NCBI GenBank assembly: GCA_025766275.1
Contig: JAFKAC010000001.1
Span: 1,922,001 to 1,986,000 of the forward strand
DNA length: 64,000 nucleotides
Direction: 5' to 3'
Source of the DNA: Lactarius indigo
Lineage: Eukaryota; Basidiomycota; Agaricomycetes; Russulales; Russulaceae
The notes under the pieces are model-generated. The model was not told the DNA's origin and made no database searches. It saw only the letters and a list, made by a program, of their open reading frames with translations. Of the stretch, positions 2,218-56,236 are shown piece by piece. The translations under genes and the position numbers were made by a program. The stretch's first letter is position 1. Every line of letters starts with the position of its first letter.

Positions 2218-5180
2218 ATGAGCACTCACACGTCTGGACTCAATAGTGAAGCTTTGAGGGCCAGTGGAAGTATTACCTTAGCGGTGCAAACAGACCACGA
2301 AGATCAGGCTGGCTCGTCAACTCGGTCGCGGGCCCAGGCCCAGACAGCTGGCCACTTCAATTCTGGTGAGTTTCCTCGTATCATAACGGTTTTGGACCTA
2401 TCATGTCTCAAACAAACAGGTGACAACGAACAACATGGCGACCGTAGTGCTCCCAGCGACACCACTCAGTCGGTGCCCCCTCGGATGATTGGGGATTTCG
2501 ACGACAACGCCAATGCCTTCTGGTCCCTTCACATGAATGAAGCAAAGAGTCACGATGAAGCCCGAATTCAATCCTTAAAAGACGATATGGGCAGTGTCCT
2601 CATATTTGTATGTATCCATATTCCCATACAGCATTTTCTGGCCCGAGCTGATGCGCCATCGTGCAGGCCGGTTTATTCTCCGCTGCTCTCATTGCCTTCA
2701 TCATCGATAAGATGCATAATCTTGATGGCGACGATCCAGCGAAGCAAATGATCTATTACCAACAACAGAATAACGCCCTACTCCAACAGATCTCTACCCA
2801 AATATCTTTTGCTGCCCCACAGACCTTGCTTTCCGCTTCAGTTAGACCATATAATTCAACTACAGATTTCAAACTACAGCCGTCCGATGTCCGGGTCAAC
2901 GCTTTCTGGTTCATGAGCCTCGTGTTCAGCATTTCTGCCGCACTCCTCGCAACGCTGGTCCAACAGTGGGTACAAGATTACATGCATGTATTTCAGCGGT
3001 ACAGCAACCCCCTGAAGAGCGCGCGACTACGCCAGTATCTATACGAAGGCGCAGAGGGATGGTATATGCCAATGGTGGCGGAGTCTGTCCCAGGACTCAT
3101 CCACGTTTCCCTCTTCTTATTCTTCTTTGGACTCTGTGACTCTCTTTTGAATCTGAACACGACCATTGGCATCACGACCATCGTTCCGATTGCCGTCTGC
3201 GGGTTACTTTACGTCTTGTCCATGTTCGCTCCGATTTGGGACCCCCAGTCACCATTTCAGACCCCATTCTCCGGCATGATCTGGTATCTGAGGCAGAAGG
3301 CGTTTCCACAACACTACTCGGATCGTGAATCTGGTGGAGCTCTCAAGAATGTGAGCCCGGACATGTCTACAGGGAAGGCGCAACTGGCGATGGAAGAGAC
3401 CGAAGAACGCAAAGGTCGTGACGTCCAGGCAATCCGATGGTTGATCGATAACAGTACAGAGGACGACGAGGTGGAATCGTTTGCGATGACCATGCCTGGC
3501 ACTTTCACCTCAGAGTGGGGCATCGGAGTGTGGGAAAAGGTCTCGGAAGTAAAGCGATATGAAGGCGCCAATTCCAGGCTGACTGACTTTACTGTCACAT
3601 CGCAGACTGATGCAGGCCTTCGGTTGTCCACCCTACCATATCATGGTTCCCCACATCCACGGCGCACCTTTCATCCTCGCACCCTCCTTCGTCCCTTCGG
3701 ACGCATTCTTGGGACACGCACCGTGAATACCATCCCCCGCGACGTGATGATGGCCCAGTCAATACCTCCCACACCGAACGACGCTCATATAGTCAGGGAT
3801 CTTGCCATCGACGATCTTTGCAAACGCGTACGGCACCTTCTCGGTACATGCCACAATCGCGGCCTATTCGCAAACAAGGAATTGTGGCGCAAGCGTGCAC
3901 GCGGATGCGTCGAAACGGTAGCGTTACTCGTGTTCTGTCCTAATGTCAAACTGGAACTGTTTGGAGATCTCGAAGACCTCGAAAGGCTACTCCACGAATT
4001 AGGCGAAACTGAGAAGATCCGTGATCTGTCAGCCGCGGGACCTGATGGGCCATTCGTCACACGCTGGATATGCCTATCCCTTGTGATCGTCACCCGGAGG
4101 ATTTCAAGCCACGACATGATAAAATCGTATGCAGAATTGGCTATCGATTACCTTTCTAGGTTCCAAGTAGAAGACGACGGGGAACAAACAAACAGTGACA
4201 CCGCTGAAAAGCTACTCGAGATATCCCGAAGGATCGACAGTGACTTCGAGACCGCGAGCCAATTTTGTGTTTATGAACTGAGAACGGCGTTCAGTCAAGG
4301 TCAAGTGGGAAGTACGGAAGAACAAGCCAGGGGAGTCCGCGAGGCCGACATTTCCAAGCTTGAAAACGTCACCTCTGTGGTGGACGAGATGGAGCGCATC
4401 GATATGGCCGTCTCTGAAATTAACCGTATAGCCAAAAATGGGTTGAGTGTACACCTACCTGGTGTATCTTTCGACGAGTTCAAGGGGACAGGACTCATCC
4501 AGCCGATTCAATTCCTCAACTTTTTGGTTGCCGAAGGGCAAGAATCCACACCCCAGTTCGTATTCCTGTGTCAGCGCCTTCGACTCTTATGCTCCTATGC
4601 CCCCAAATTGCGTTCCATCATGGACGGACGAGGCGATGACGTTTACCAGGACGTCGTCGGGAGCCTAGGGAGCCTGTGGGACAACGCTGATCGCAGGCGG
4701 TCAGTCGTTGGTCAACAACATCTGATGGAACGACAGCTATGGCGCTTGCTGGACCTTCGTGATGGTGGCGGCTTCGGATTCTCAGTTGAGGTTTTCTTTC
4801 TTGTGCTCGCACGACTATCATCGCCACAGGATACAAACACCGCCCTTTATATCAGAACGTTCAGAGCCATCACGTCCGGCTGGAGACAACACAGAGATTG
4901 CATTGGGACGCAGCGTGTGATTCTTAACTTGATCTGCGACATTGCTATTTGTGACCGTGGCATCTTTTCTGAACCCACTTTCCCAGCAGATATCGCCAAC
5001 GAGCTTCTGATATTATTTGAGAACATGATGGAGGGGCAGTCCGGTTCGCATCTTGACGATGCAATGGCGGAACTGCGGCTAGGTCCTCCATTGATTATTT
5101 ACAATGACCCAGAGTTCTTCTCCGAGGCACGGAAACTTATCTTCCATTTGAGTTCTCGTGTACCTCATGTACCTTCATAG
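2218..5180 (+). CDS. DUF6535 membrane protein, copy 1 (intact)
   Basis: Predicted 949-residue protein from exons 2218-2365, 2420-2607 and 2667-5180. Introns 2366-2419 (GTGAGT...ACAG) and 2608-2666 (GTATGT...GCAG) are in phase. Exon 2 to exon 3 gives the family hallmark: an Asn-Ala-x-Ala-Phe-Trp stretch, then VLIF joined to AGLFSAALIAFI. Hydrophobic segments follow at the exon-3 start, at FWFMSLVFSISAALLATLV, and as a pair around SLFLFFFGLCDSLLNLNTT and IAVCGLLYVLSMFAPI, so four membrane helices are likely near the N-terminus. The remaining 600 or so residues are soluble and helical. DUF6535 is a known Agaricomycete family without an assigned function. The ATG at 2218 was chosen because it gives the same 148-nt first exon as copy 2. 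Copy 2 at 10155-13112 is closely similar throughout but frameshifted. Confidence 0.85.
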
Positions 5181-48948: not shown

Positions 48949-51900
48949 CTACCCCAATGCCTCTAATTGAAAAGCACTATTAACAAGTATCCCAGTAAAT
49001 AGAAGACTTGACAAACCAATATTTGTATCCACCAGAAAGCCTATAAATTGCCCAACAGTGTATCTATTAGAAGATTGGGGGAAATGTTCCCTGATTGTTG
49101 ACATGATATTTGCTCCCTGACAGTCTGACTCTGCTTGAGTAAGAGCTGATTCAACTGGAGTACCAGAAAGGCACAAAACAGCTGCATGCTTGAAAATGAG
49201 AATGATTGCTAATTGAAATGTTAAATGTGCTGTAAAAAATAGGAAAGGCAAATACCCAGTCTCAAATGGTAGCTGCTGGCACTAGCAGGATTGTACTGAG
49301 AAATATGGTAAGTGGAAGTAGTGAGAGCACATCACCATAATAAGAGAACAGCACCTCTGAAATGATTGAAAGAGACATAGCATGTGTTATCTGGTGAAGT
49401 AAGAACCATAATTGACCAAGGATATAAAATACCTACAATCTAGATGTTCAATGATAGACACTATCAGGAGACTTAAAAAGAAAAAGAGGCAGCACTCACA
49501 CTCTGAAGAGACAGAAATGGGCCCAATCAGTGAAGTCAGCAAGAGATGGGAGGCACTCACATCCTAAAGAGTCAAAAAGGGTCTTCATATACAAGTGTGA
49601 AAGAAATCAAGTAGTAGGCACCCACCAACTGTAGAGCCAAGGGTGAACCCAGTCAACAGGCTCAAAAAGGTGCCCTAGACAACAGCCACTCACTTTCTGT
49701 AAAGCAAAGGGTACACTTGTCAGAGGTATGGAAAGGGAGTCAGAGATGGTAGCTGCTCACTTCCTGTAGTGCAAATGGTGGGCATGGTCAGCAAGCATCA
49801 CAGCCAAGTGCAGGTTTAGTCAGTGGAATGGAAAGTGTGCTAGTGACTCACTTTCTGCGAAGTCAAGGGTGGACTTGGTAAGCGGGTTGGAAAGTATGCA
49901 AAAGACTGCAGTAACTCACCATCTGTGGAGCGAAGAGTGGTCATGATCTGCAGGTGAGAATATATCCGGGGACAGCAGCAACTTACTTGCTGCAGAGCGG
50001 GACATGACACTCGGTTAGCTTGAATGGATGCCAGAGACAGCCGTGCTCACAATCTACAAAGATGCGGTCAGTGGGGTTAAAAGGTAACCAGGGACAGCAG
50101 CCGCTCACCTTCTGCAGAGCCAATAGTGGGCCTAGTCAGCAGCAAACTTAAAAGGGAGCTAGGGACAGCAACAACTCACATGCTGCACGCCAGCTCAATT
50201 AGCGAGGTTGAAAGAGAGTCGGGGACAGCAGTCACTCACCTCCTACAGAACAGCAGGTGAGCCTGATCAACGGAGTCGAAAGGAATCCCGGGACAGTAAT
50301 GACTCACCTCCTGCACAGCATAGGGAGAACTTGGTCAGCGTAAAAGAGGTATTAGGGACAGCGGCGACTCACAAACTGTAGAGCCAAGGGCGGGGCTAGT
50401 CAGGAGGCTCAAAGGGTGCCAGGAATAACGGTGACTCACGAACTGCAGAGCCAAGGGCGAACTCTGTCAGTAGGTTTGAGAGGCTGCGATAGACAGCAAC
50501 TCACTTTCTGCAAATTAAAGGGCAGGCTTGGTTAGTAGGCCTGGAGGTGCGAGGGACAGTAGCGGCTCACGTCCTACAAAGCCGAGGGTGGGATCAATCA
50601 GCGGACATATAAGCGTGCAAGGGATAGAAGTGACTGACGATCTGCAAAGCCAAGGTGGGCCTGGTCAGCGGGCTTGAAAGTGTACTAGAGTGTAGCCACT
50701 CACGTCCTGTAGAGCCAAGGACAGGCTTGGTCAGCGAGTTCAAGAGGCTAGGAACCAAAGCCGCTCACGTTCTACAAAGCCGAGAACAGGCTTGGTAAGT
50801 GGGTTTGAATGCATGCCAGGGACACCAGTAACTCACGTTCTACACAGCCGATGGCGAGTTTGGTCAGCGGGCTTGAGAAGGTGCTAGGTACGATAACTCA
50901 CCTCCTGCAGAGTTGAGAGCAGACCTGGTCAGTGGACTTGAAAATGTGATAGGGACAGTAGCTGCTTACAAACTGCAGAGCCGAGGGTAGCCTTTATCAG
51001 TAGTTTGAAAGCGTACCAGGGATAGCAGCGGCTCACACACTGCAGAGCCGAGATGGGCTTTATCAGCGGGCTTGAACGGACAGTAGCGACTCACGTTCTG
51101 CAGCGCCGAGGGTAGGTTAAATCAGCGCGTTTGAAAGCGTGTCAGGGCACAGCAGCGACTCACACACTACAGGGTGGACGGTGGGCTTGATCAGCGAGCT
51201 TAAAGGGACAGTAGCAACTCACAAGCTGCAGAGCCAGGGACAGGCTCTGTCAGCGGGTTTGAAAACGTGCCAGGGATAGCGGCAACGTACACACTGTAAA
51301 GCCGAGGGCAGACTTTGTCAGCCGGTTTGAAAGCGTGCCAAGGATGGCAGCGACTCACACACTACAGAGTGGAGGGCGGGTTTTGTGAGCGGGTTTGAAA
51401 GCGTGCCAGGGGATAGCAACAACTCACGGGCTACAAAGCCGATGGCAGGCTTTGTCAGTGGGTTTGGAAGTATGCCAGGGGATACTAGAGACTCACAATC
51501 TGCAGAGCCGATGACAGGCTTTGTCAGCCGGTTTGAAAGCTTGCCGGGGATGCAGCGACTCACACACTATAGGCAGCCCTTGTCAGCAGGTTCAAAAGTA
51601 TGCCAGGGATAGCAGACTCACAATCTGCAGAGCCGAGGGCAGGCACTGTCAGCAGGTTTAAAAGCGTGCTGGGGATAGCAGTGACTCACGGGCTGCAGAG
51701 CGAAGTGCAAGCTGTGTCAGCGGGTTTGAAAGCATGCGGGGACAACAGCGACTCACACACTGCAGAGCCGAGGGCGGGCATTGTCAGCGGGTTTGAAAAC
51801 GTGCCAGAGATAGCAGCAACTCACAAACTACAGAGCCGAGGGTAGGCTTCACATCAGCGGGTTTGAAAGCATGCCAGGGATAGCAGCAACTTACACACTA

Positions 51901-54900
51901 TAAAGCCCGAGGGCGGGCTCTGTCAGCGGGTTTGAAAGCGGGTCAGGGATAGTAGCGACTCACACACTACAGGGTCGAGGGCAGGCTTGGTGAGTAGGCT
52001 TGAAAGGGAGCTAGGGATAGTAGGCACTCACCAGCTGCAGAGCCGAGGGTTGGCCCGGTCAGCAGCCTTGAAACGGTGCTAGGGAAAGCAGCTACTTACA
52101 CACTGCAGAGCGCCGAAGCCAGGCTTAGTGAGCGAGATTGAAAGGGCGCCAGAGATAGCAGGCACTCACACACTGCAGAGCCAAGTGTCGGCGTGATCAG
52201 CGGGCTTGAAGACGAGCCAGAGACGACAGCAGCTTACCACCTGCAGAGGCGATGGTGAACTTGGTCAGCAGACTTGACAGAACGGACACTAGCCACTCAC
52301 AAGCTGCAGAGGCGACGGCGGTCTTGGTCAGAGCCCTCGAAAGGGAGCCAGGGATAACAGCCACCTACAAGCTACAGAGCCGAGGGCAGACTTCGTTAGG
52401 GGGTTTGAAAGGGCGCCAGCAACAGCAGCCACTCACAACCTGCAGAGAGAAGGGCGGGCTTTGTCAGCGGGCTTGATAGGGTGCCAGCGACAGCAGCCAC
52501 TCACGGACTGTAGAGGCGAAGGTCGGCTCGGTCGGCAGACGTGAAATAGTGCCAGGCAGCGACTCACAAACTGCAGAGCCGAGGGTGGGCTTGGTCAGTG
52601 GGCATGAAAGTGTGTAATGGATAGTTGCCATTCACTTCCTACAGAGACGAGAGCGAGATTGGTCAGCGAGCTTGATAGCGTGCGAGGCACTCACTTTCTG
52701 CAAAGCCAAGGGTAATCTTGGTCAGCGGACTTGAAAGCGTGCTAGGGGGAGCAGTCACTCACATACTGCAGAGTGGAGGGCGGGCTTGGTCAGCGGCTTT
52801 GGAAGTGAGCCAAGGATAGTAGCCGCTCACTTTCTGCAAAGCCAAGGGCAGGCTTGATCTGCGGGTTTGAGAAGGTGCCAGGGATCTACTCACCTGCTGC
52901 AAAGCCAAGGGCGGGCTTGGTCAGCGGGTTGAAAAGGTCCCAGTGACAGCAGCCACTCACAAACTGCAGGGTGGGCTCGGTCAGAGTACTTAAAAGGGTG
53001 TCAAGGACAGTTGTGACTCACAATCTGCAGGACCGAGGGCAAGCTTAATTAATGGGCTTGAAAGGACGTCAGGGACAACATAGACTCACGTTCTGCATAG
53101 CCGAAGGCAGCTTGATCAGCAGGGTTGAAGAGTCAGGAAGAGCAGTTACTCACCTCCTGCAGAGGCGAGTGTGGGCTTAATCAGCGAGCTTGGAAGAGTG
53201 CCAAGGTAGCAACCACTCACAAACTGCAGAGGCGAGGGCGAGTTTGGTTAGTGCGTTTGAAAAGAGACAATAGTCACTCACTCTCTGCACAGCCGAGAAC
53301 ATCTTAGTCAGCGGGCTTAAAAGCGTCCCAGGGACAGTAGTAACTCACTTTCTACACAGCCGGGGCCGAGTTTATTCAGCGGCTTTAAAGGGGTCATAAA
53401 CATTACAAGACTCACAAACTGCAGAGTGGATGGTGAGTTTGATCAGGGCTTGAAAGGGCATCACGGATAGCCACTCACTGTCTGCAGAGCCAAAGGTAGG
53501 CTCGGTCAGCAGGCTTAAATGCGCAGCACGGACAGCAGCCACTCACCCTCTGCGGGGCCGAGGAGGGGTCTTGATCAACGGGTTTGAAAGTGAGCCAGGG
53601 GCAGCAGCCACTCACATCCTGTCGGGCCGAGGGTGTGCTTAGTCAGCAGGCTTGAAGCGGTGGCAATACTGGCAGTGACTCACAAACTGCAGAGCCAAGA
53701 GCAGGCTTGGTTAGCGGGCCTGAAGCGGTAGCAGGGACAGTAACGACGTAGCGGCTCACTCGCTGGAGAGCACGCGTAGGCTTGGTCAGTGGGTTTAAGA
53801 GGGTGCTAGGGAACCACTTCACATCCTGCAGACCCAAGGGTGGGTTTGGTCAGCGGGCTTTCCAGGGACGGCAACCACTCACTTTCTGCAGTGCCGAGGG
53901 CGGGCTTGGTCAGCGGGCTTGAAATTGTGCTAGCGACAGTAGCCACTCACGTCCTGAAGAGTCGGAAGTATGCTCGGTCGGTGAGCTTAGACAGGTGCCA
54001 GGGGACCGTACTCACTTCCTTTAAGGTCGGTGTCGGACTTGCTCAGCAGGTCTTAAAGGGTGCCAGGGTCAGCAGCAACTCACAAACTGCAGAGCCGGTG
54101 ATGGGCCTGGTCAGCGGGCCTGAAAATATGCCAGGGACAGCAGCGACCCACAAACTGTACAGTTGATGGCCGGCTTGGTCAGTGGGCTTGGTCGCCAGGG
54201 ACGAGTAACTCACGTTCTACAGAGCCGAGGGCGATCTCAATCAGCGGTCTCAAAACGGAGCCTGGGACAACAGTCGCTCACCTCCTGTGGAGCCAAACGT
54301 GTACTTGGTCAGTGGGCTTGAAAGCGAGCCAGGGGAAACAACAGCTTACTAGCTGCAGAGGAAGACAGGTTTGGTCAGCGCCTTTGAAAGACCGTGAGGA
54401 AAACTTGCAACTCACGTCCTGTAAAGCCACGGATGGGTTTGGTAAGTAGGACTCAACGGGGCAAGCAACTGCAGCGACTCACAAACTGCAACCCAGGGGT
54501 GAGTTCGGTCAGCAGGCTCGAAAGGGTGCCTGTGACAGTAGCGACTCACATCCTACAGAGTCAGAGTGAGGATGGTCAGCGGGCTTGAAAGGGTGCGCGG
54601 ATAGTAGCAGCTCACCAACTATAGAGTCGATGGTGAGCCTCGTTAGCAACATTGGAAGGGTGCCGACGACCTCAGCGACTCACAAACTGCAGAGCCAAAA
54701 GTAGGTATGGTCAGCAGGCTTGAATGGGTGAAACAGCAACTCACGTCCTGCACATCCGGGGTATGCTTGGTCAGTGGGCTTGGAAAGGTGCCAGTGATCC
54801 TCGCGACTCACTTCCTGCAGAGCCGAGGTGTGGGTTTGGTCAGTGAACCCGAGCGACCAGGAACGGAACCACTCACTCCCTGGTAGCAAAGGCCAAGTAC

Positions 54901-56136
54901 AGGCGGTCAGTAGAGCCGAAATATGGCGAGCAACAACATGCACTTACGAACTGCGGTGTCGCGCGATATCGAGCATGAGAAGAAAGGACCCCACTTGCCA
55001 AAAAAAAAAAAAAACTTGCCCAGATTCGGGGAAATGCGAAAAGGCATGCCCTCACTACAAATCTTGTCTTTTCGTTATAGAGCCCCATAACGCTTCAATC
55101 TCTGGTGAGACAGTACCCTCTTCCATACATGTAGAAAACTCACCGCTTGACTGCCACGTTGATGCTGAGTTCCAAATTACCTCTCTGTGCGGCCAAAAGC
55201 ATGACGATGACTGTATCGTCATTCAACGCATCGGCTGTCTCATCGAGAAGAGCCTGGCAACTCGTCTCTGGCCTGTTCATATCTTTCATAAGAGGATTAG
55301 TACATGCCCTCCACATTTGACGCTGAACGGACTTCTCAATCGCACGAACCTCTCACCGACACCAAGGTGAGACAGGTAGTGATCATTAAATTGTCTCTCC
55401 GCCACCGCCACATCAGGTACGTCATCTGGATTTCCGTAATCCTCCAAATGCATTCTCACGTTTCGCAGGAATTGGTCGTATTTGGTGAATATCGCTATGA
55501 CAGGGACTTGGAACTGATGTGTTAAACAGCTTCACAGATGTTCACGACAACGTACCATTCTTGTCAGGGCAAATGTCGTTGAAGTGTTTCAGGTCCAGCT
55601 CTGGTCGTTGGTTGTCCATTGGGACGCAGTACCTGTAAAGCACGACCATTAGTGATTGTAATCGTGAACTTGAGTAAGCGAACCATATTGCATGCAATCT
55701 ATCCTGCATACGCCTTTCCCCAGACCTTTCTCGAATGAATTCCTGCACGATTGCCAACTCCTCGATACTACCAGCCTCGAATCCACAGGAGTCATGAAAA
55801 ATGTATCCGTCATGATTGGAGAACTCAAGTTCATCCTTGATGGTGTGCTCGCCACGCTATCTCGAAGATCAGAACGGCCGCAGTGAAGTACGAGTGCCAC
55901 CCACCTCCATGGACGGGTGAAATTGAACCTTGTGAGGAAGGGAGTGGTGAGTGCAGACTAGTAGAGTGAAAAATGACAAATACCCGCTCTCTGTGGTCGC
56001 CCGTTCGACGGTAAATAATTGGGCTGTCCGTAGTGTTGCACAATCTCTGCAAGATGGACGTCTTGCCAGCATTTGCACGCCCTACAATGAGAACTCGGAA
56101 CTTGATTTTTGGGAGTCGACGGCCTTGGAGGGGCAT
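48949..56136 (-). CDS. GTPase 2 with an array of single-codon exons
   Basis: Head exons: 56136-55984, 55928-55905, 55856-55684, 55632-55556, 55506-55333, 55282-55144 and 55092-55056, all joining in phase. They encode FRVLIVGRANAGKTS (G1), VQFHPSMERGEH, YIFHDSCGFEAGS (G3), VPVIAIFTKYD (G4, TKYD) and a helical tail (TADALNDDTVIVMLLAAQRG). The seventh exon ends in phase 0 at a GTGAGG donor. About 84 introns then follow, separated by 3-nt exons from 54950 to 49437. A final exon candidate (about 49251-48949, TAG stop) encodes a hydrophobic helix (LTFQLAIILIFKHAAVL) and a charged tail, resembling the C-terminus of GTPase 1. The start ATG at 56136 is the nearest to the G1 motif; 56181 is possible. 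The head is well supported; the array's membership in this gene and the last exon are inference. Confidence 0.6.
49437..54950 (-). repeat. Tandem array of about 84 intron units separated by 3-nt exons
   Basis: Degenerate repeat, about 66 bp per unit. On the minus strand each unit is donor GTGAGT (variants GTAAGT, GTGAGC, GTAGGT, GTACGT), about 35 variable bases, branch CTGAC (variants CTAAC, CTGAT), about 20 bases and acceptor CAG or TAG. Then exactly three bases follow before the next donor. On the plus strand this appears as CTCAC-NNN-CTG/CTA. The three bases vary widely (at least 25 different triplets seen, e.g. TTT, TGT, GAC, GAA, AAA, AAC, CCC), while the flanking signals are kept. Hand reading found none equal to TAA, TAG or TGA. 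Examples: exons 54948-54950 (TTC), 54877-54879 (GGA), 49626-49628 (TTG), 49500-49502 (AGT). Confidence 0.8.
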
Positions 56137-56236
56137 TGCGGGAACGGGAACGGGAGCAGGAACGGAGGGTTGGTCTCCCATGCTTGTTGGGTGTATGAAG
56201 CAAGAGTGGCTGCACCAACCCACCTTCCTTTTTAGT

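Follow-up and report, generated by a model that had tools for sequence, protein, structure and literature searches.

In this study, we analyzed a window of 64,000 nucleotides (nt) from the genome of the basidiomycete Lactarius indigo (assembly GCA_025766275.1, contig JAFKAC010000001.1, positions 1,922,001 to 1,986,000; all positions below are counted from the first base of this window). On its minus strand, between 49437 and 54950, lies an array of 84 putative exons of exactly one codon each, separated by short introns. We propose that this array forms the central part of a GTPase gene and that its one-codon exons are spliced into an in-frame, hypervariable protein segment which changes by codon cassettes, a reading to which we assign a probability of about 0.86. 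At the level of the gene family, splicing and translation of the array codons are well supported, and the relatives suggest that the window locus is spliced in the same way.

Splice signals and spacing of the array

A sequence-only reading had placed an array of about 84 introns, separated by exons of one codon, at 49437..54950 on the minus strand. These bounds coincide with the first (54950..54948) and the last (49439..49437) codon exons, and the count turned out to be exactly 84: at each of 84 acceptor-codon-donor junctions, exactly 3 nt separate the acceptor AG from the donor GT. The unit length of 66 bp had to be corrected. The inter-codon introns range from 55 to 88 nt with a modal length of 65 nt (28 of 83), giving a modal unit of 68 bp.

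The strict pattern YAG-N3-GTRAG occurs 75 times in the array, whereas 500 dinucleotide shuffles contained it 0.34 times on average and 3 times at most; the reverse strand contains it once. The junctions outside these 75 have weaker donors or acceptors. When every YAG with a GTRAG starting within 20 nt was considered, the distance was 3 in 75 of 76 cases and 0 in the remaining one.

The splice-like positions are also the best conserved ones of the unit. The donor GT, the acceptor AG and the branch-point A column are invariant (2.0 bits each), while the intron body has a mean of 0.96 bits and the three codon positions, which are nearly random, reach 0.07, 0.29 and 0.14 bits. An exact CTRAY was found in the body of 67 of the 83 introns (16 lack it), and the median distance from the branch point to the intron 3' end is 25 nt. 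The 5' GT, branch A and 3' AG are thus ordered at fungal spacing, as in the sequence of GT-AG spliceosomal introns.

Gene model at the window locus

The flanking exons were set by similarity to other copies of the gene and by splice sites judged by eye. The resulting gene (56181..48949, minus strand) has 94 exons, of which 7 lie upstream of the array, 84 are the one-codon exons and 3 lie downstream. They join without an internal stop into 1,446 nt encoding 481 amino acids (Table 1), so that the peptide of about 84 residues anticipated from the sequence would connect the flanking exons in frame. The predicted product consists of a P-loop GTPase, the 84 array residues and a C-terminal part. It contains GRANAGKTS, HDS.G (HDSCG in the window) and TKYD (FTKYDQF in the window), which we take to be the P-loop, G3 and G4 motifs, respectively. 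PF01926 (MMR_HSR1-like) scored 21.1 and 20.7 bits in the two GTPases scanned, against a cut-off of 21.9, and several homologues carry a precomputed PF01926 annotation.

A second copy in the assembly, on contig C175, is 99.64% identical across 16.2 kb. Between 49300 and approximately 55015, the two copies differ at 9 single positions, none of which is a codon-exon position; from about 55015, in the intron preceding the array, the register between them is lost. On the plus strand, the only open reading frame (ORF) of at least 150 amino acids that overlaps the array (54828..55370, 180 amino acids) is located at the array edge.

Related arrays in the L. indigo genome

Genome-wide, 1,675 strict junction pairs were counted compared to 63 for reversed controls (positions were given for about 100 of the 1,675). 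The FTKYD exon has 49 matches in the genome and the C-terminal exon 50, some of them alleles. Among these roughly 50 flanking-exon matches, all 18 gene copies examined carry an array (14 modelled arrays, C231a, C231b, C231c and C240), and all 16 arrays whose flanks were inspected belong to one GTPase family. A rough extrapolation yields about 2,100 single-codon exons in the genome; for this value, 1,675 was divided by the ratio of 579 strict matches to 721 modelled exons in 15 arrays, the ratio being assumed constant and haplotype copies being counted.

Fourteen arrays were modelled with all exon lengths from 1 to 15 nt equally allowed. Nevertheless, 687 of 689 exons were 3 nt long, and the introns measured 46-92 nt. 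None of the 687 codons is a stop, whereas 81.7 stops would be expected from the per-position base composition (minimum 59 in 5,000 shuffles); the other two frames (1 and 2) contain 28 and 92 stops of 673. The same holds when each distinct codon type is counted per array (0 stops of 202 vs 16.4 expected). In all 14 cases, the array leads from an upstream ...IW into a downstream exon starting with MSLP, VSLP, ISLP or MSLS, in phase 0. These values stem from a final run in which the last acceptor had to lie no more than 30 nt from the MSLP anchor, a bound chosen after the sequences had been seen. In a first run, which allowed a long last exon, 679 of 681 exons had 3 nt, and several last exons were out of frame.

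The fifteenth array, C231a, consists of 32 exons of 3 nt each. Simple chaining gave 35 identical codons each for C231b and C231c, which did not match the downstream anchor pattern and were therefore not modelled. No array was found in the stretches L047-L050, of which L049 and L050 had been chosen for single pattern matches on C1, apparently due to chance.

C240 represents a divergent subfamily (L062, L063; G000:C240:215000-221400) with its own intron consensus and its own codon set (GAA, CGA, GGA, TAT, CTT, CTC, CAA and ACT). Its 66 codon exons contain no stop, where 3.6 would be expected for 53 of them, and its array adjoins GTPase exons that are 33-73% identical to P0129, one of the proteins described below. 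Further pattern matches of this second type, with introns that look unrelated and a different codon set, were seen on C50, C82, C91 and C218:125-146k.

Array residues in proteins of relatives

Short JGI contigs of relatives were taken as complementary DNA (cDNA) because the upstream introns are absent from their proteins. The upstream exon junctions are clean at all four positions tested in P0056, P0059, P0089, P0129 and P0132, and at three of four in P0086, in which a residue change breaks the match to the fourth pattern. Two proteins have later starts, P0127 (inside the G domain) and P0128, and cover one and two clean junctions, respectively. P0135 (ENA) and P0140 (JGI) were considered genomic, since introns are read through at the covered junctions. 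P0126 and P0123 (ENA) lie further downstream, are uninformative for the upstream junctions and run through array-type introns.

A spliced-type product with 34-64 array-like residues is present in three proteins from JGI contigs (P0127, P0128 and P0129). P0127 reads ...FPYIW, 47 residues, TAHIMSLPIIQN, LVHNGAGHHHLLL and AAILILKHAT; the 47 residues end with LNHF, and the L. indigo arrays C6 and C248b end with NHF. P0129 contains 64 array-like residues, with the beginning of the next exon counted in. In P0128, 34 residues are followed by VRVYSL, which we read as a final-type intron. P0056 has 11 residues (LFEEEGDTFIE) before VSGCNGLI, the reading of an array intron, while FFFN precedes an array-intron-like reading in P0086 and FFG a less clear one in P0089. 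P0059 continues into the first array intron, and P0132 goes on beyond FPYLW with sequence of no clear assignment. By pattern match, 15 of 140 proteins run on into array-type introns, P0131 through several of them. As 11 of these 15 come from five other named Lactarius species, such introns at the array site are not peculiar to L. indigo.

A related GTPase model from Psilocybe cyanescens (P0134), marked partial, breaks off precisely after FPYLW, the point at which the array begins in Lactarius. Possibly, the array layout extends beyond the Russulales; contamination of the record is another possibility.

Changes of codons and introns between arrays

Two complete units (GAA and TGG), together 135 bp, distinguish the close copies C2b and C231a, with the frame kept; in addition, one codon differs synonymously. 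Their alignment also contains two 68-column gaps that are offset and compensate each other, as well as indels of single bases beyond the array. In the alleles C6 and C255, the unit number is constant, 1 of 34 codons differs (GAA vs TCT) and the following intron has two single-nucleotide polymorphisms (SNPs). C218 and C259 have common ends and different middles; among their aligned units whose flanking introns are at least 98% identical, the codon differs in 10 of 31, never synonymously. One such difference (AGT vs TTG) lies between flanking introns that are both identical (130 nt), and another (TTG vs AGA) is accompanied by one SNP.

Expressed as rates, C218/C259 show 0.258 differences per codon site vs 0.0079 per site of the following intron. 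The values are 0.029 vs 0.0063 for C6/C255 and 0.012 vs 0.0033 for C2b/C231a, with a single codon difference in each of these two pairs. Across 15 arrays, both flanking introns are identical in 60 pairs of units. The codon is common in 46 of them, to which near-identical gene copies contribute, and different in 14, in 9 cases at three bases. Codons framed by identical neighboring introns can differ at 2-3 bases. Within arrays, intron pairs at least 93% identical have 0.03-0.05 differences per site in the introns and 0.55-0.70 in the codons, as calculated for the 9 arrays that have 35 or more such pairs (there are one or two in four arrays and none in the window array). Pure unit duplication followed by neutral divergence was rejected, as codons differ far more than introns in C218/C259 as well as inside arrays. 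In the manner of cassettes, units are gained and lost as a whole and changed by the whole codon.

Codon use and properties of the segment

The array segments comprise 16-84 residues and are mostly rich in charged residues, Phe, Leu and Ser. The six commonest codons account for 66-96% of each modelled array except that of the window (52%), and for at least 79% in 9 of 15 arrays. Compared with 17 ordinary exons, the arrays prefer AGA (0.87 vs 0.14 of Arg) and AAA (0.97 vs 0.34 of Lys). Ala, Thr and Ile are encoded by 11, 2 and 9 of 719 array codons, but by 95, 58 and 70 of 874 ordinary-exon codons. Over the 15 arrays, Glu, Phe, Leu, Arg, Ser and Asp dominate, and Ala, Thr, Ile, Val and Pro are rare. 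The idea that codon choice is purely a splicing optimum is weakened by C240, in which CGA and CTC/CTT take the place of AGA and TTG, the predominant choices of the first subfamily.

The window array stands out by its best 19-residue hydropathy of 2.75, the other 13 scored arrays reaching at most 0.32 (C223a was too short; the letters of odd exons in C248a and C248b were misread as residues, which leaves the window value unaffected). Its hydrophobic, Cys-rich stretch could form a membrane segment. A structure model of P0129 had a mean predicted local distance difference test score (pLDDT) of 59.3 and a predicted template-modelling score of 0.49. With a pLDDT of about 33-45, the array region is probably disordered, and the C-terminal part is predicted, with low confidence, to be helical. 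Foldseek searches with P0129 returned general P-loop GTPases with low TM-scores (bacterial dynamin-like proteins, IRGB10, septin, G-alpha and Rab), and we therefore do not name the GTPase family.

Weighing of the evidence

Several observations speak against spliced one-codon exons that change as cassettes. The donor and acceptor scoring scheme was devised for this analysis. Two arrays contain one odd exon each: the frame-shifting 4-nt exon GACT in C248b (L010), a possible pseudogene or sequence error, and the frame-keeping 6-nt exon GGAGTA in C248a (L009), where a strict 3-nt chain would include one TGA. The array codons are absent from all 8 L. indigo gene models viewed, 7 of which end at or before the array, while P0002 continues into its first intron. 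Introns appear to be retained in P0056, P0059, P0086, P0089 (the least clear case) and P0128; splicing may therefore be slow or leaky, and a predicted protein can reveal only its first retained intron. As the cDNA status of the JGI contigs rests on proteins, none of which agrees with an L. indigo array at every residue, the segment in these species might in principle be an ordinary exon. Moreover, some units paired by the loose alignment may not be orthologous. With a strict reciprocal-unique filter, codon differences amount to 2 of 12 in C218/C259, each at all three bases, and to 0 of 26 in C6/C255, whose differing unit fails the filter. Finally, in 11 of 14 arrays, introns on at least one side are slightly more alike between units carrying the same codon (p < 0.05); unit duplication would give such a weak linkage.

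Among the alternatives, we consider a neutral ratchet rather unlikely. Here, units would multiply by unequal exchange, and the peptide would be unimportant filler that is only kept open. The array peptides are indeed of low complexity, the array region of P0129 is probably disordered, and the excess of codon changes is small in two of the three close pairs. Neutral codons, however, would not be expected to change about 30 times faster than the adjacent introns, as they do in C218/C259, and the skewed amino-acid use also speaks against mere filler.

It is improbable that the array serves splicing diversity, with codons skipped freely so that one gene gives rise to very many in-frame isoforms. 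No isoform pairs were seen among the proteins, and what they contain is apparently retained introns rather than skips, a comparison biased by the fact that proteins end at the first retained intron. In favor of this idea, skipping any one-codon exon keeps the frame, and partially spliced transcripts seem to exist.

Introner-like insertion, in which identical introns entered an ordinary pre-existing exon, would make the introns young and the codons old. This would account for the weak link between codons and intron similarity and for the 14 of 60 unit pairs that have different codons between identical introns, but we judge it very unlikely. Exons of 6, 9 and 12 nt would be expected, and 6 nt was seen in 1 of 689. 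Furthermore, growth was observed as codon plus intron (C2b/C231a), a codon differs in place at constant unit number (C6/C255), and the codon-intron linkage described above fits unit duplication.

That the array is one large intron or an untranscribed minisatellite, its 3-nt spacing reflecting only the homology of repeat units, deserves hardly any credence: young arrays would keep their spacing through such homology alone and the viewed gene models lack the array codons, but there are no stops, the codon positions of the window unit are its least and the splice signals its most conserved, the frame survives varying intron lengths and a unit indel, and cDNA-like proteins of relatives contain the segment. 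A single large intron was rejected on stops, frame and the relatives' proteins, and a plain minisatellite, against which the sequence-only reading had already argued, on the position-specific constraint tied to coding. The shuffles, the modelling with free exon length and the stop counts led us to reject chance or a repeat artefact. What had been proposed for the window, introns separated by one-codon exons, is in turn supported by the gene model, the stop test, the continuity of the frame in 14 arrays and the proteins of relatives.

Possible mechanism and role

According to our favored reading, each 3-nt exon would be one phase-0 codon and each intron an ordinary short fungal intron with donor, branch point and acceptor. 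Splicing would join the array codons to the upstream GTPase exons and to the conserved downstream C-terminal exon. Because the repeating unit is a codon plus an intron, duplications, losses or exchanges that break within introns alter the protein by whole codons and keep the frame. One two-unit indel was observed, and recombination would be the mechanism behind such gains and losses. For codon changes in place, where the whole-codon difference itself was observed, short-tract copying is the probable route, for which the sequence that all units have in common at their splice sites (about ...TCTCCAG NNN GTGAGTGGCTG...) would act as the homology handle. To change the codon only, the tract would need to be as short as this conserved sequence around it. 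We infer both gene conversion and diversifying selection; on these data, selection and codon-directed copying are inseparable.

As to its role, the segment most likely provides a signalling GTPase with a fast-diversifying surface for recognition or membrane targeting, although this is speculative. A tentative extension, which we regard as possible but short of probable, is that the array is a diversity generator in which germline recombination or templated copying swaps single codons, using the splice sites as homology handles. New in-frame protein sequence would then be produced from a small codon vocabulary for recognition of non-self, a partner or the host, and the introns would be frame-safe spacers for protein evolution.

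If the proposed splicing is true, these genes form a class that writes a protein segment one residue per exon, with more than 80 consecutive one-codon exons spliced without loss. This would be an extreme test of spliceosome fidelity, of exon and intron definition and of splicing order. Introns have often been argued to separate coding units, letting recombination edit a protein by whole codons without frameshift, and one-codon-exon genes make this role testable. Likewise, near-identical introns flanking different codons allow the mode of codon change to be tested directly between strains. Since the viewed gene models end at or before the array or enter its introns, array genes would be mis-annotated in Lactarius.

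Comparison with known systems

The following comparisons refer to the portions of the cited papers that were at hand. Micro-exon genes (MEG) of Schistosoma have exons of mostly 15 bp (range 6-81 according to the text and 3-81 according to the abstract) and introns of 0.1-5 kb (PMC10526429). They resemble the Lactarius arrays in their strings of very short, mostly in-frame exons and in being hard to annotate automatically, but the Lactarius arrays are not of the Schistosoma type: 687 of 689 exons have 3 nt, the introns (46-92 nt, around 65 nt) are mutually homologous, and the variation seen is among copies in the genome. In aphids, the bicycle and megacycle genes also have many microexons (more than 100 in megacycle) and form a fast-evolving family; tandem introns or uniform one-codon exons are not mentioned in the portion at hand (PMC9168663). 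Fungal introner-like elements share the near-identical spliceosomal introns, but these occur in unrelated genes with neighboring pairs 145-626 bp apart, whereas the Lactarius introns, in the 16 arrays with inspected flanks, sit at one place in one gene family (PMC4457414). Single exons of 1 nt in Arabidopsis APC11 (PMC4674806) and Fusarium CYP621A (PMC12940212) indicate that the spliceosome copes with such sizes, in fungi too, though neither is part of an array. The MEG and bicycle genes are thus nearest in gene layout, and the introner-like elements in intron homology.

Uniform one-codon exons in tandem are absent from the available portions of PMC10526429, PMC9168663, PMC4457414, PMC4674806 and PMC13149111, and functional microexons were stated in 2024 to be previously undescribed in filamentous fungi (PMC11121469, in the portion at hand). 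In line with the initial impression that no such gene had been described, we found no description of one-codon-exon arrays among the papers listed from open-access full text, which is weak evidence of absence as subscription journals are largely outside it. What would be new in the one-codon-exon array is the genetic layout; its splicing chemistry would be ordinary.

Features and surroundings of the gene

Table 1. Predicted features of the GTPase gene in the window, listed in the direction of transcription
Feature	Position	Strand	Basis
Exon 1, proposed start codon and P-loop GRANAGKTS	55984..56181	-	similarity to other copies, gene model
Exon 2	55905..55928	-	gene model
Exon 3, G-domain HDSCGFEAG	55684..55856	-	similarity to other copies, gene model
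Exon 4, YCVPMDNQRP	55556..55632	-	similarity to other copies, gene model
Exon 5, G4-like motif FTKYDQF	55333..55506	-	similarity to other copies, gene model
Exon 6	55144..55282	-	similarity to other copies, gene model
Exon 7, end ...AFPRIW, array follows in phase 0	55020..55092	-	gene model
Intron preceding the array, non-canonical GC-AG, poly-T tract	54951..55019	-	
Array, 84 one-codon exons and 83 introns of 55-88 nt, encoding FGEDFLDFDLENFFEDKDRFDRTFKRFENIFQKYKEFSVLLVCCLCCFCPICIPCCLCNCFENNDIDKFFEEHKIQMKEKLDSI	49437..54950	-	
Part of the array, 25 codons of the hydrophobic Cys-rich segment FSVLLVCCLCCFCPICIPCCLCNCF	50970..52570	-	
Intron closing the array, 46 nt	49391..49436	-	
Downstream exon ITHAMSLSIISE, like MSLPTIQN of other copies, entry phase 0	49355..49390	-	
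Downstream exon YNPASASSYHLRL	49256..49295	-	exon order as in P0127 and P0129
Terminal exon AIILIFKHA...EALG and stop	48949..49208	-	similarity to other copies, gene model

The GTPase gene starts about 5 kb past a retrotransposon-rich stretch (15201-43958), in which 7 of 9 scanned ORFs are Gypsy- or Copia-type retrotransposon genes (RVT_1, RVT_2, integrase and gag). In another part of the window (2661-5180), an ORF of 839 amino acids contains DUF6535 (E-value 8.8e-37).

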